From: Armatimonadota bacterium
GTDB taxonomy: Bacteria > Armatimonadota > UBA5829 > DTJY01
Assembly (NCBI GenBank): GCA_029907255.1
Contig: JARYMF010000005.1
Location: 186,001-250,000 of the forward strand
Direction: 5' to 3'
DNA length: 64,000 bases
The notes beneath the pieces are model-generated. The model worked only from the letters and a program-made list of their open reading frames with translations. It had not been told where the DNA came from and searched no databases. Below are positions 34,751 through 43,264 of the stretch, piece by piece. The number at the start of each line of letters is the position of its first letter. Position 1 is the first letter of the stretch. Position numbers and translations under genes: made by a program.

Positions 34751-35473
34751 ATGGCAAAGTCAATGCTAATTGGATATTGGGGATGTCCCCCAAGGGAAGT
34801 CATTGCCCAGGCATCGCGAAAACATCCATATGATGAATTTATTGATCTCGACGTTGACCTTGGCGCTCCGCCGAGCCACTTGGTGCCTGACGCATACTGC
34901 CAAATTATTACCAATATAGTAGACAACGCACTCCATCTCCGCGACCGCCTGCGTTTTATTATCGCGGCCGTTGGTGAAGATAAATGTGACGGCGGAAGGT
35001 TTGCAGCGCTAATGCTAAAGGACTTGGGCTTTACAGTCTTTGAAGTGCGAAACCCAAACATGGAACGCAGACCAATTACAATCGCTACATCGGGTCTTCC
35101 TTTACGTGAGAAAGTTAATAGAATCATGGACTCAGTTTGCAAGCCAAATCGCAGGGTCTTTTCGCCAGTGAAACCAACGCATGGATTTTGGGGGGTGCCA
35201 CCCCATGATATGCGGTTGCTGGACCTATTTCCCGATACAACACACGTCTACGGATGGACGCGTTGCGTAGAAGCCGGTGTACCCGCTGATCTCGATTTAG
35301 AAATGCAAGTTGACCCGGGCGTTCCTACTGTATTTTTCGCCCAAACATTTTGTGCGAAGACTATGCTTGCACGCTACCTAGCCGAAAAATACAACGGGCT
35401 CTATATTGACTGTGACGGTCCAATGACCCACAGCGTGGTGGCTCAGATAACTGCTTTCATTCGACTAGGATGA
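34751..35473 (+). CDS. Uncharacterised Cys-rich protein, probable partner of HgdC-like ATPase
   Basis: A 240-residue protein that I do not recognise, without signal peptide or membrane segment. Seven cysteines sit in conserved-looking settings: GYWGCPPREVI near residue 8, DAYCQII near 48, GEDKCDGGRFA near 77, SVCKPN near 124, GWTRCVEAGVP near 166, FCAKTMLARYLAEK near 198 and LYIDCDGP near 216. The C-terminal pattern of Cys-x2-Lys, helix, then Y-x-D-x-D-G suggests a nucleotide- or cluster-binding fold, possibly related to 2-hydroxyacyl-CoA dehydratase subunits, but this is a guess. The BadF/HgdC-like ATPase gene follows on the same strand after 86 bases, and the two probably work together. Confidence 0.6.
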   Translation: MAKSMLIGYWGCPPREVIAQASRKHPYDEFIDLDVDLGAPPSHLVPDAYCQIITNIVDNALHLRDRLRFIIAAVGEDKCDGGRFAALMLKDLGFTVFEVRNPNMERRPITIATSGLPLREKVNRIMDSVCKPNRRVFSPVKPTHGFWGVPPHDMRLLDLFPDTTHVYGWTRCVEAGVPADLDLEMQVDPGVPTVFFAQTFCAKTMLARYLAEKYNGLYIDCDGPMTHSVVAQITAFIRLG

Positions 35474-35559
35474 AATTACCAGATTATTTAAATCAAAGAT
35501 AAAGCTCTCGTAAGCACCTCAACACGGTAGTTAATGCCCAATCCATTTGAGAAAGTAAC

Positions 35560-36204
35560 ATGCCAACGCTGATAGCCGATTGTGGAAGCTCGTGGAGTAA
35601 AATAAAAAACCTCGAAGAAGGCAAAATCGTTATCAAGCCAACCTCGCAAATATTGAAGAATCCGCGACTACGTTTTGCCGTCGCCACAGGACACCTGGGG
35701 CGTGAGCGTGCCGATAGATATGAAAACGAAATAATCGCTTTAGCCCAAGGTAGCCTAAAGCTCATACCAGAAGAAAATTTTACGGTCGTCGATATTGGCT
35801 CGAGGGACACAAAGTTCGTGCGCTTCAATGGTCGAAAGCTCAGGAAAATGGATTGGAATCAAGCATGTGGTGCGAGCACTGGCTTTACCCTTGAACTTTT
35901 GGCAAAGTACTATGATTTAGACTTCAATACCTTGCCAGCAAGTGACAAAAAGATTCCCGTGACTTGTGGTATATTTGCTATTGAGCAAATATTCGATACC
36001 ATAATTAGAGGCGGGTCGCCAGAAGATGCACTTGCCCAATTCATCCATGGCATCGCCTTCAACGTATACAACTTCGCTCAGCGCCCGGAAAAACTCTATG
36101 TTTCAGGCGGCCTATGCGCTAATAATTGTTTCCTCGACAGCCTCAGCAAGTATTGCGAAGTAGTCCCTCTCGGCAGGCACGTTCTCTTGGAAGGGCTGTA
36201 CTAG
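35560..36204 (+). CDS. Compact BadF/HgdC-family ATPase (2-hydroxyacyl-CoA dehydratase activase-like)
   Basis: A 214-residue ASKHA-fold ATPase of the BadF/BadG/BcrA/HgdC family, whose members hydrolyse ATP to push one electron into a partner enzyme. Visible are LIADCGSSWSKI at residue 4 (phosphate 1), VVDIGSRDTKFV near 76 (phosphate 2) and LYVSGGLCANN near 179 (adenosine). The two cysteines that hold the [4Fe-4S] cluster between HgdC subunits appear conserved: Cys103 in NQACGASTGF and Cys136 in VTCGIFAIEQIF. It is about 45 residues shorter than HgdC, with a trimmed N-terminus and C-terminus. No hgdA/hgdB, CoA-transferase or benzoyl-CoA reductase gene is nearby. Confidence 0.8.
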   Translation: MPTLIADCGSSWSKIKNLEEGKIVIKPTSQILKNPRLRFAVATGHLGRERADRYENEIIALAQGSLKLIPEENFTVVDIGSRDTKFVRFNGRKLRKMDWNQACGASTGFTLELLAKYYDLDFNTLPASDKKIPVTCGIFAIEQIFDTIIRGGSPEDALAQFIHGIAFNVYNFAQRPEKLYVSGGLCANNCFLDSLSKYCEVVPLGRHVLLEGLY

Positions 36205-36311: not shown

Positions 36312-36524
36312 ATGGCATATGGCGAAGCATCAATGAGCATGGAAAACCCTAATGAAGGCAGAGTCATGACGTGCACGGCTAGGGACTGCATGTGGAATGA
36401 AAACTCTACCTGCACCGCTGACAATGGGATAATGGTCAACTTCCATCAAGATCATGCAGACTGTACTACTTACTCGCAGAATAAGCACGTTCCAAGTCAG
36501 AGCCCAGGCGCAGCACAGCTCTAA
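36312..36524 (+). CDS. DUF1540 small Cys-rich protein
   Basis: A 70-residue protein with the DUF1540 pattern: CTARDCMWNENSTCTA near residues 21-36, and DHADCTTY near 48. Four cysteines are spaced as in a small metal-binding knuckle. The family is widespread in Firmicutes and relatives, with no known function. AAAGGAGGG lies ten bases before the ATG and a strong terminator follows the stop. It is probably transcribed on its own, or by read-through from the HgdC-like pair 107 bases upstream. Confidence 0.82.
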   Translation: MAYGEASMSMENPNEGRVMTCTARDCMWNENSTCTADNGIMVNFHQDHADCTTYSQNKHVPSQSPGAAQL

Positions 36525-41200: not shown

Positions 41201-43264
41201 TTACTTCTCGGCTTCTTCTCGCGCAGCCTTTGCTCGGGCTATGTTCTCAAACCAAAAATTCGTGAACTGCTCGAGGGTTGGCGGAACATAGCAAGTATTA
41301 ATGTAATCCTCTGGCGCAACCCCCTCTGGGTCAAATGCCTTAACCCAATCAGGCCAGATTCTCGCAAGCACGTGTGACCGCTTCTCCCAAATCGAACCTG
41401 CAGCTGGCGTTCCGTCTGGATTCATTCCTTCGTAAAGCGTCTTCCAAGAGGTTATTTCTAAGCCTCCTGACTTCTGAATATCAAGCCACATCCGCTGGAT
41501 ATTACCAAAATCAGTCGAGAACGGAACATCTAAGAGATCGGTGTTTTGGTGAAATTTCCGCTTCGAGGCGGTCAATAATCGCGTGCGCTTCAAGCCGCAT
41601 TTGTTCTCCAAGTGGATGACTGCCCGCTTTGTCGCAAGCGTCCCTGCATGATCAATTGCATCCTCTTCAGCTTCGGGATCAAACTCAATGCCAGCTTTGG
41701 CAAGCTCGGCTTTAAACTCTTCTGTGTTCAGCGGAGCGTCGGTCAAGGCTTTAACAGCTGCAGGTTTTATCTCCGTCTTAAACTTCGAATCATCCGGAAG
41801 AGCGGCGAGCAGCTTCTCAACTCGATAACATCTAATAGCATCGTTGAATCGGCCAATCATACTTGTGACAACCGACCCACCTTGCCCATCATCAACTTTC
41901 TCGCCAGTTCTCCGCTCATATTCTGCTAGTCCCTCTTCCACTGCCAAGCTGGAGGCAACCATCTGTGATACGTCATAAGATAGGGTCATATTGGTAAACA
42001 TTCGCTCTTTGACAGCATCTGGATACTCCGGGTGGAATCCCGCGTTAAAAGCGCGAACGATGTTTAGCGCCACTTGTGATGTACAAGATATCTTGAAATG
42101 GTTGTTAGGCTTGCCTATTCTTGGCGCAGCAATGCTTTCATATGGTTCTCCTGCACCTGCCAAAAGGATATCATCGAATACTTTCATCCGCTCTCCAAGC
42201 CTGGCGTATATCTCGCCACCGGCGTAAGCAAGCTTTTTCTCCTCACAATGCCAATCAGGCCTAAGCTGAAATGCAACACGGCCTAGGTTTTTCAATAGGA
42301 AGATTGACCTAAGCCCAAGCATTGCATCAACAACAACCCACTCGGTGAAAGCAGTTGCGCCCCAGTCATCAGCCTCTCCTTTCGCAATTTGCTCGCGGGC
42401 TATGATTTTCCGAACTTCCCGCCACTTATTTGGAGAGCGCGTTATAAACTTTGTCGCTTCCTCACCCCATATGTTCCCTTTGCCGTCGAGATCATCTTCG
42501 CCCATTACAGCAATCGCCGGGTTAGTTGTTCCACCAAGGCTTCCGATTTTTCGGCATCGTGCGGCATGCAGCCCATAATCGTTGAAGAACTGAGTCTTTG
42601 TTTCGCCGTTTTCCCATGCTAGGAAAAGTTTGACATAATAGGTCGAAGGTTGGTACAGCTCTTTAAAGCATTTGAGAAACTCTCCTGTCGAAGAATACGG
42701 ATCTATGCCCGTTCGCTTTTCCCAATCCTTCGCCCACGCTATGAATAGGTTGTCCCCTTTATTGACAGCCAAGTCCTCGGTTTTGAAGTAATCAAGCACT
42801 GCTCTTGCTGCGTTGCTATCTGCCTGCTCCCAATCCTCAAGCAGTCTTGCCGACGCACTGTAACAAGTTGCAACAGTAGACTCAGGGAGTATTTCTGTGC
42901 CATGCAGGTTGGTGTTCTGCAAATTGTGGTGCAGCTCAACAATTGAATTAAGGGAATCAGCAACTCCAAGAAGAAATGCAATTGAGTTTGCCCGAGTTTC
43001 AAGATTTCCACAAGGAAATGCTTCATCCAAAGCCAGCGCAATGGAGGCAAGTCGAGATGGGAAGTCACATGGTTTCGTGAAGAAAAGGAGTTTTTGGCGA
43101 GCGACTTCCACTGCCCAACCTGGCATCATTGGCTTAACCCGTGGGTCTCGCTCGAGAATCAGGTCGACTATCACCTGCGATGCTTCATCAAGTGAGCCGC
43201 CTCCACAACACGAACAACAAGTTCCACCTTTCTTACCTACCAACCCTGAGTCTTGAATGGACAT
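41201..43264 (-). CDS. Very long transaldolase-family-like protein
   Basis: A 687-residue cytosolic protein, two to three times the size of normal transaldolases. The core resembles the family: GSLGGTTNPAIAVMGED near residue 237 fits the T-T-N-P-S motif. FKISCTSQVALNIVRAFNAG near 392 holds a lysine placed like the Schiff-base lysine. TNMTLSYDVSQMVASSLAV near 424 fits the N-x-T-x-x-x-S segment. Residues 1-225 and 500-687 are helical extensions I cannot name. The N-terminus carries a GGTCCSCCGGGS stretch with four cysteines. AGGAGG precedes the ATG. It converges on uxaE with a 15-base gap. Substrate unknown. Confidence 0.7.
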   Translation of the reverse strand: MSIQDSGLVGKKGGTCCSCCGGGSLDEASQVIVDLILERDPRVKPMMPGWAVEVARQKLLFFTKPCDFPSRLASIALALDEAFPCGNLETRANSIAFLLGVADSLNSIVELHHNLQNTNLHGTEILPESTVATCYSASARLLEDWEQADSNAARAVLDYFKTEDLAVNKGDNLFIAWAKDWEKRTGIDPYSSTGEFLKCFKELYQPSTYYVKLFLAWENGETKTQFFNDYGLHAARCRKIGSLGGTTNPAIAVMGEDDLDGKGNIWGEEATKFITRSPNKWREVRKIIAREQIAKGEADDWGATAFTEWVVVDAMLGLRSIFLLKNLGRVAFQLRPDWHCEEKKLAYAGGEIYARLGERMKVFDDILLAGAGEPYESIAAPRIGKPNNHFKISCTSQVALNIVRAFNAGFHPEYPDAVKERMFTNMTLSYDVSQMVASSLAVEEGLAEYERRTGEKVDDGQGGSVVTSMIGRFNDAIRCYRVEKLLAALPDDSKFKTEIKPAAVKALTDAPLNTEEFKAELAKAGIEFDPEAEEDAIDHAGTLATKRAVIHLENKCGLKRTRLLTASKRKFHQNTDLLDVPFSTDFGNIQRMWLDIQKSGGLEITSWKTLYEGMNPDGTPAAGSIWEKRSHVLARIWPDWVKAFDPEGVAPEDYINTCYVPPTLEQFTNFWFENIARAKAAREEAEK

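Follow-up and report, generated by a model that had tools for sequence, protein, structure and literature searches.

A small HgdC/BadF-type ATPase and its putative client protein appear to form an as yet unnamed system related to benzoyl-CoA reductase and hydroxyacyl-CoA dehydratase

Introduction

To our knowledge, ATP-driven injection of electrons below the ferredoxin range is confined to few enzymes, namely benzoyl-CoA reductase, hydroxyacyl-CoA dehydratase, the double-cubane cluster protein (DCCP) and nitrogenase. In the dehydratase systems HadBC/HadI and HgdAB/HgdC the client consists of two subunits of about 375-410 amino acids. HadC is a subunit of 2-hydroxyisocaproyl-CoA dehydratase, and Cys127 and Cys166 of HgdC are the ligands of its bridging [4Fe-4S] cluster. 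DCCP, a protein of about 421 amino acids, forms with its reductase DCCP-R (7yyl) a two-gene system of client and ATPase with no attached CoA pathway.

The benzoyl-CoA reductases (BzdNOPQ, MbdONPQ) also work with an ATPase partner. The catalytic [4Fe-4S] cluster of BzdO has exactly three cysteine ligands, with water on the fourth iron, while BzdN, a relative of DCCP, uses six cysteines for an [8Fe-9S] cluster and has its cluster-bearing cysteines at helix starts (PMC11971306). Both BzdN and BzdO contain an intermediate three-helix domain of 72-78 residues that helps to form the CoA channel (PMC11971306).

Here we describe a gene pair, A and B, in a stretch of 64,000 nucleotides from an Armatimonadota genome (contig positions 186001-250000), referred to below as the window. 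Its first-pass annotation had proposed an HgdC-like activator with a small client of its own. No direct account of an orphan activator-client pair from such bacteria came out of our literature searches.

Organization of the locus

Genes A and B lie on the same strand and are separated by a gap of 86 bp (Table 1). Each has a single possible ATG, and an upstream stop a few codons before it leaves no earlier start; the coordinates and the shared strand previously given for both reading frames were exact. A small DUF1540-like gene lies directly downstream of B. We considered it as a part of the system and rejected it, since among the loci compared it was restricted to the same genus. Further along the window there is a gene for a 687-aa protein, which has a Cys-rich N-terminus (GGTCCSCCGGG) and, as judged by eye, a transaldolase-like stretch; it had no match when Pfam and NCBIfam were searched. 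Its gene lies near UxaE in the window, and its family is a convergent neighbour of B in another genome (G004, L098).

Table 1. Features of the A-B locus and nearby genes, in window coordinates
Feature	Position	Strand	Size	Description and basis
Gene A	34751..35473	+	240 aa	Compact HAD/BCR/DCCP-like client protein (predicted); ORF, AF2 model, Foldseek, 45 distinct homologues
A Cys50	34898..34900	+		Putative first ligand of the [4Fe-4S] cluster, at the start of helix 51-62; 45/45
A Cys79	34985..34987	+		Putative second ligand of the [4Fe-4S] cluster, at the start of helix 80-91; 45/45
A Cys172	35264..35266	+		Nearly invariant (42/45) and non-essential; manual alignment with DCCP-type L045 puts it on a distal-cubane ligand
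A Cys201	35351..35353	+		Putative third ligand of the [4Fe-4S] cluster, in the QTFC motif at the start of helix 203-213; 45/45
Gene B	35560..36204	+	214 aa	HgdC/BadF-type ASKHA ATPase (activator); profile and PDB matches, own clade
B phosphate-1 motif	35578..35601	+		DCGSSWSK (D7-K14), aligned with DVGSTASK of HgdC 1hux
B Cys103	35866..35868	+		Predicted bridging-cluster ligand; aligns with HgdC Cys127 (1hux); 45/45
B Cys136	35965..35967	+		Predicted bridging-cluster ligand; aligns with HgdC Cys166 (1hux); 45/45
B Cys186	36115..36117	+		Extra invariant Cys, adenosine motif SGGLC; 45/45
DUF1540-like gene	36312..36524	+	70 aa	Small Cys-rich protein
687-aa protein gene	41201..43264	-	687 aa	Cys-rich N-terminus

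Gene B encodes an activator-type ATPase

Judged by its sequence, B is an HgdC/BadF-type ATPase. It matched Pfam PF01869 with an E value of 2.4e-7, just below the gathering score (31.0 bits, where 31.5 are required), and TIGR00241 (acyl-CoA dehydratase activase) with an E value of 8e-18, yet under the curated cut-off. A sequence search of the PDB gave 4eht (E 1.6e-10) and 1hux (E 3e-10), and B resembled the solved activators HadI, HgdC, DCCP-R (E 1e-9) and MbdPQ; when a 23-member profile of B (A3) was used, HgdC 1hux was the best solved relative (E 2.9e-17). The homology to HgdC, HadI and DCCP-R places B in the HgdC/BadF activator family.

The phosphate and adenosine motifs of ASKHA ATPases are present in B and invariant in the 23 sequences: D7, G9 and K14 in the phosphate-1 motif, D78-x-G80-x-R82-D83-x-K85, and S182-G183-G184. 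The two putative cluster cysteines, Cys103 and Cys136, give two ligands per monomer at the level of sequence and were invariant among the 45 distinct orthologues. It had been suggested that B keeps both motifs and both cysteines, and that these cysteines correspond to the HgdC ligands; on each point our alignments agree. The adenosine motif itself differs, reading SGGLC in B, with the additional Cys186, and TGGVA in HgdC.

The orthologues of B formed a single clade (support 100/100) apart from 16 other BadF-type ATPases, with a gap in profile score between 59 and 270 bits. No PF06050 (HGD-D) gene was found in the window genome, in agreement with the earlier remark that the classical clients are absent; a second BadF-type ORF, of 1442 aa, is located elsewhere in this genome. 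B is thus an orphan with respect to a classical client and not the sole BadF-type protein.

Gene A is a compact relative of the usual clients

When A was searched by sequence against Pfam, NCBIfam and the PDB, nothing credible was found; the sole PDB match was a designed helical barrel, which we judged to be a composition artefact. Without a Pfam or NCBIfam annotation, A cannot be seen by routine annotation. No relative of A was found in viral contigs, plasmids or phages. Against PF06050, the best E value among 32 homologues was 0.006, any match at all was obtained for four of them, with none for the A protein of the window, and the curated score was not reached. We therefore do not regard A as an ordinary known dehydratase subunit, the outcome that the first-pass annotation had set against its own proposal. 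Membership of PF06050 was also dropped on another ground, as hhalign comparison with classical HGD-D subunits (A5) did not rise above shuffles.

The closest sequence profile to A was that of a family of 325-aa HGD-D-like proteins (A6), with YPRNAC...EGDC...QSFC corresponding to PDAYC...GEDKC...QTFC in A. When the two halves of A were aligned to A6 by hhalign, each scored above all of 60 column shuffles, at probabilities that are low in absolute terms (4-23%). Cys50 was aligned with the cysteine of YPRNAC, Cys79 with that of EGDC and, in the C-terminal half, Cys201 with that of QSFC, which are the three invariant cysteines of A6; Cys79 was also aligned with the TTCD cysteine of A5 in the match that did not exceed shuffles. 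The 325-aa proteins (L054-L064, e.g. L064:1498-2472 on the minus strand), which come from classmates of the window genome, differ from A in being about 85 aa longer, in matching PF06050 clearly (E about 1e-35) and in having a queE-like neighbour instead of a B-type ATPase. By eye, a queE-like radical SAM gene adjoins them in most loci; an HGD-D relative tied to queuosine biosynthesis would be unusual.

The seven cysteines noticed earlier in A are indeed there, at positions 12, 50, 79, about 130, 172, 201 and 221, and the relevant set is smaller: Cys50, Cys79 and Cys201 are the only ones invariant in the 45 distinct homologues. Cys172 is replaced by Ala or Ser in three of them, and we therefore judged a four-Cys cluster that includes it unlikely. 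Polar residues beside the cysteines, K78, D80, R171, E174, Q198 and K203, are invariant or nearly so.

An AlphaFold2 model of A was obtained from a 32-member alignment with a pLDDT of 93.4 and a pTM of 0.88. In a Foldseek search of the PDB, ranks 1-3 were occupied by HadC (3o3m, 3o3n), with E values of about 1e-5 and TMq 0.56-0.57, and rank 5 by DCCP (7yyl_A), with an E value of 1.3e-4 and TMq 0.54. The probability was 1.00 for both proteins. Rank 4 went to an unrelated thioesterase, for which TMq was only 0.26. With a model from a shallower alignment, the five best matches were to HadC, DCCP and a benzoyl-CoA reductase subunit. The closeness of the model to HadC and DCCP indicates that A is related, in a compact and divergent form, to the proteins that such an activator usually serves. 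It had previously been said that A could not be placed, which is true of sequence families; its predicted fold is a reduced version of HadC, DCCP and the benzoyl-CoA reductase subunits.

The eight strands of the model fall into two sets of four parallel strands, and each set builds one predicted alpha/beta domain, as in the superfamily. Between them lies one short helix (118-127) only, and the three-helix intermediate domain is missing. The three invariant cysteines immediately precede helices in the model (Table 1), and Cys50 has the same helix position as Cys73 of BzdN (PMC11971306). Cys50, Cys79 and Cys201 are thus predicted to occupy the positions of the family's three [4Fe-4S] ligands.

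A and B are inherited together

A profile of A found 12 strong carriers among 291 Armatimonadota genomes, and in every Armatimonadota genome found with A, B was located directly downstream on the same strand. Among 101 relatives, A and B occurred in the same eight. The second sample consisted of 244 genomes of the phylum of a Gastranaerophilales bacterium (G294), 37 of which had strong matches to A; strong matches to B were found in the same 37. In 11 of these carriers, which belong to two separate B clades, A and B lie on different contigs and both genes are still kept. Weak matches in three genomes (G296, G349 and G520; E about 1e-3) were treated as chance. The pair is known here from these two phyla; a wider scan of 84,980 species genomes, which looked for identical stretches of eight residues of the window protein, reached close relatives only.

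The distances within A and B were also correlated (r 0.93, with shuffles giving at most 0.24), part of which reflects shared ancestry. This makes the correlation weaker evidence than the match in presence and absence together with the retention of both genes after separation. The conservation of the pair is far beyond chance, and A and B are mutually obligate. The expectation that they would be conserved as neighbours is borne out in that they are strictly co-conserved and usually adjacent.

Hosts and neighbourhoods

No third gene was conserved around A and B across lineages in about 40 neighbourhoods from the two phyla, and the attempt to derive a function from neighbours failed. In one Armatimonadota family only (f22, L099-L102), a UroD-like gene of the corrinoid methyltransferase type was seen within about 2-3 kb of the pair, which may be plain synteny.

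HGD-D genes of full length were found in three other carriers (G003, G048 and G250). One of them, G003, is a family-mate of the window genome and contains, in addition to its A-B pair, an HGD-D protein (L045; C35:10046-11742) with all six cysteines of the double-cubane type (79, 117, 147, 312, 345 and 378) and its own adjoining BadF ATPase, which is likely a DCCP/DCCP-R pair. Most Gastranaerophilales carriers gave partial, C-terminal PF06050 matches, to proteins that look DUF2229-like by eye (L044). These proteins (L042-L044 included) are 345-410 aa long, occur once or more per genome and form tandem pairs in several Gastranaerophilales; in the reduced genomes of this group we read them as a separate activator-type system.

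The heme-copper oxidase gene COX1 was absent from all 12 Armatimonadota carriers, compared with 197 of 291 genomes across the phylum that have it, and genes of the pyruvate:ferredoxin oxidoreductase type (POR) were present in all 20 carriers tested. An oxygen-sensitive system fed by ferredoxin fits such hosts. In addition, the pair is kept in small genomes of 1.7-2.1 Mb.

Discussion

The predicted fold of A, its ligand pattern and its co-inheritance with B make it very probable that A is the client of B. The original idea, that an HgdC-like activator serves a small client dedicated to it and apart from the classical systems, has good support from the co-conservation and from the alignment of the cysteines; the client is not unrelated or new, and has the usual fold in reduced form. 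A shares with benzoyl-CoA reductase a site of three cysteines for a [4Fe-4S] cluster (Cys95, Cys128 and Cys380 in BzdO), their position at helix N-termini and two alpha/beta domains, all predicted in A, as well as the ATPase partner; the pair lacks both the CoA domain and a second subunit with a cluster, and no genes for aromatic degradation lie nearby. The dehydratases are similar in that their activators are homologous to B, with both cluster cysteines, and that HadC gave the closest structural match to the model of A; they differ in their two large subunits, whereas A is one short gene product without the intermediate, helical CoA-binding-related domain. DCCP resembles the pair in layout, and its fold matches that predicted for A. 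However, A has three invariant cysteines and not the six of BzdN, and at least one distal ligand of the double-cubane proteins has no equivalent in it, so that no Cys-ligated double cubane would be expected. Such a cluster in A was rejected on the count of cysteines, three invariant ones plus Cys172 in 42 of 45.

We propose the following scheme. A homodimer of B would hold one [4Fe-4S] cluster, to which each subunit would contribute its Cys103 and Cys136, and would receive an electron from ferredoxin. Binding and hydrolysis of ATP would then reshape the dimer, and an electron of very low potential would pass into the cluster of A. This cluster would be a single site-differentiated [4Fe-4S] between the two alpha/beta domains, bound by Cys50, Cys79 and Cys201, with its fourth iron open. 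At this iron a small substrate, probably no CoA ester, would be reduced or undergo radical elimination. As a whole, a minimal two-component enzyme for ATP-driven electron injection is the best explanation of the pair, and we give it an even chance of being right; the odds appear equally balanced for a small non-CoA substrate, which is suggested by the missing intermediate domain only. A could bind CoA in another way. Since no substrate genes are conserved as neighbours, the reaction is read from anatomy only. That this is the smallest known enzyme of ATP-driven electron injection, reducing at low potential a metabolite or cofactor that is no CoA compound and is new to the family, in Armatimonadota and Gastranaerophilales devoid of a terminal heme-copper oxidase, we consider a little short of an even bet.

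The pair might instead be a device for reductive activation or maturation, in which A passes electrons to the cofactor or cluster of another enzyme and not to a free metabolite. ATP-driven reductive activation systems are known and provide a precedent, and the absence of conserved metabolic neighbours from about 40 neighbourhoods in two phyla, the housekeeping-like scatter of the loci and the retention of the pair in small genomes of 1.7-2.1 Mb would all suit this role. However, no client enzyme co-localises with A and B, and the conserved polar residues beside the cysteines of A are as in a catalytic site, which leaves the device a tentative suggestion, with roughly a one-in-four claim on belief. 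It is rather unlikely that A represents a 2-hydroxyacyl-CoA dehydratase or benzoyl-CoA reductase in miniature that still acts on a CoA ester. Its fold and three-Cys signature do match HadB/HadC and BzdO, and CoA esters are the substrates of the enzymes with which activators of this family usually work, but A (240 aa, compared with 373-421 aa) has neither of the two elements lining the CoA channel of BzdNO, the intermediate domain of three helices and the N-terminal helix, genes of a CoA-ester pathway were not found near the pair, and a single client gene stands here where the dehydratases and benzoyl-CoA reductases have two different subunits.

A sulfur-related role similar to that of TudS (4-thiouridine-5'-monophosphate desulfidase) seems still less probable. 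TudS has been placed as a reduced family member with a [4Fe-5S] cluster (PMC11971306), and A keeps the additional, nearly invariant Cys172; yet TudS is described as consisting of one family domain that works through the transfer of sulfur, and an activator ATPase is not mentioned as its partner, whereas A has two predicted domains and an obligate ATPase. Finally, the gap of 86 bp and the lack of a sequence-detectable family for A would be compatible with two unrelated neighbours, A being some other Cys-containing protein. We regard this as very improbable in view of the client-type fold of A and the identical phylogenetic profile in 37 of 37 carriers, including the 11 with A and B on different contigs.

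A and B, read as a two-component electron-injection enzyme, appear to be a small system, as yet without a name, that is related to the machinery of benzoyl-CoA reductase and of hydroxyacyl-CoA dehydratase. The small size of both proteins makes them good candidates for structural and spectroscopic work. If the proposal is true, a client without a CoA domain and with the three core ligands only would represent the minimal architecture of ATP-driven electron injection, and the pair, which is present in many Gastranaerophilales, bacteria of poorly known metabolism, would point to a substrate outside CoA metabolism.
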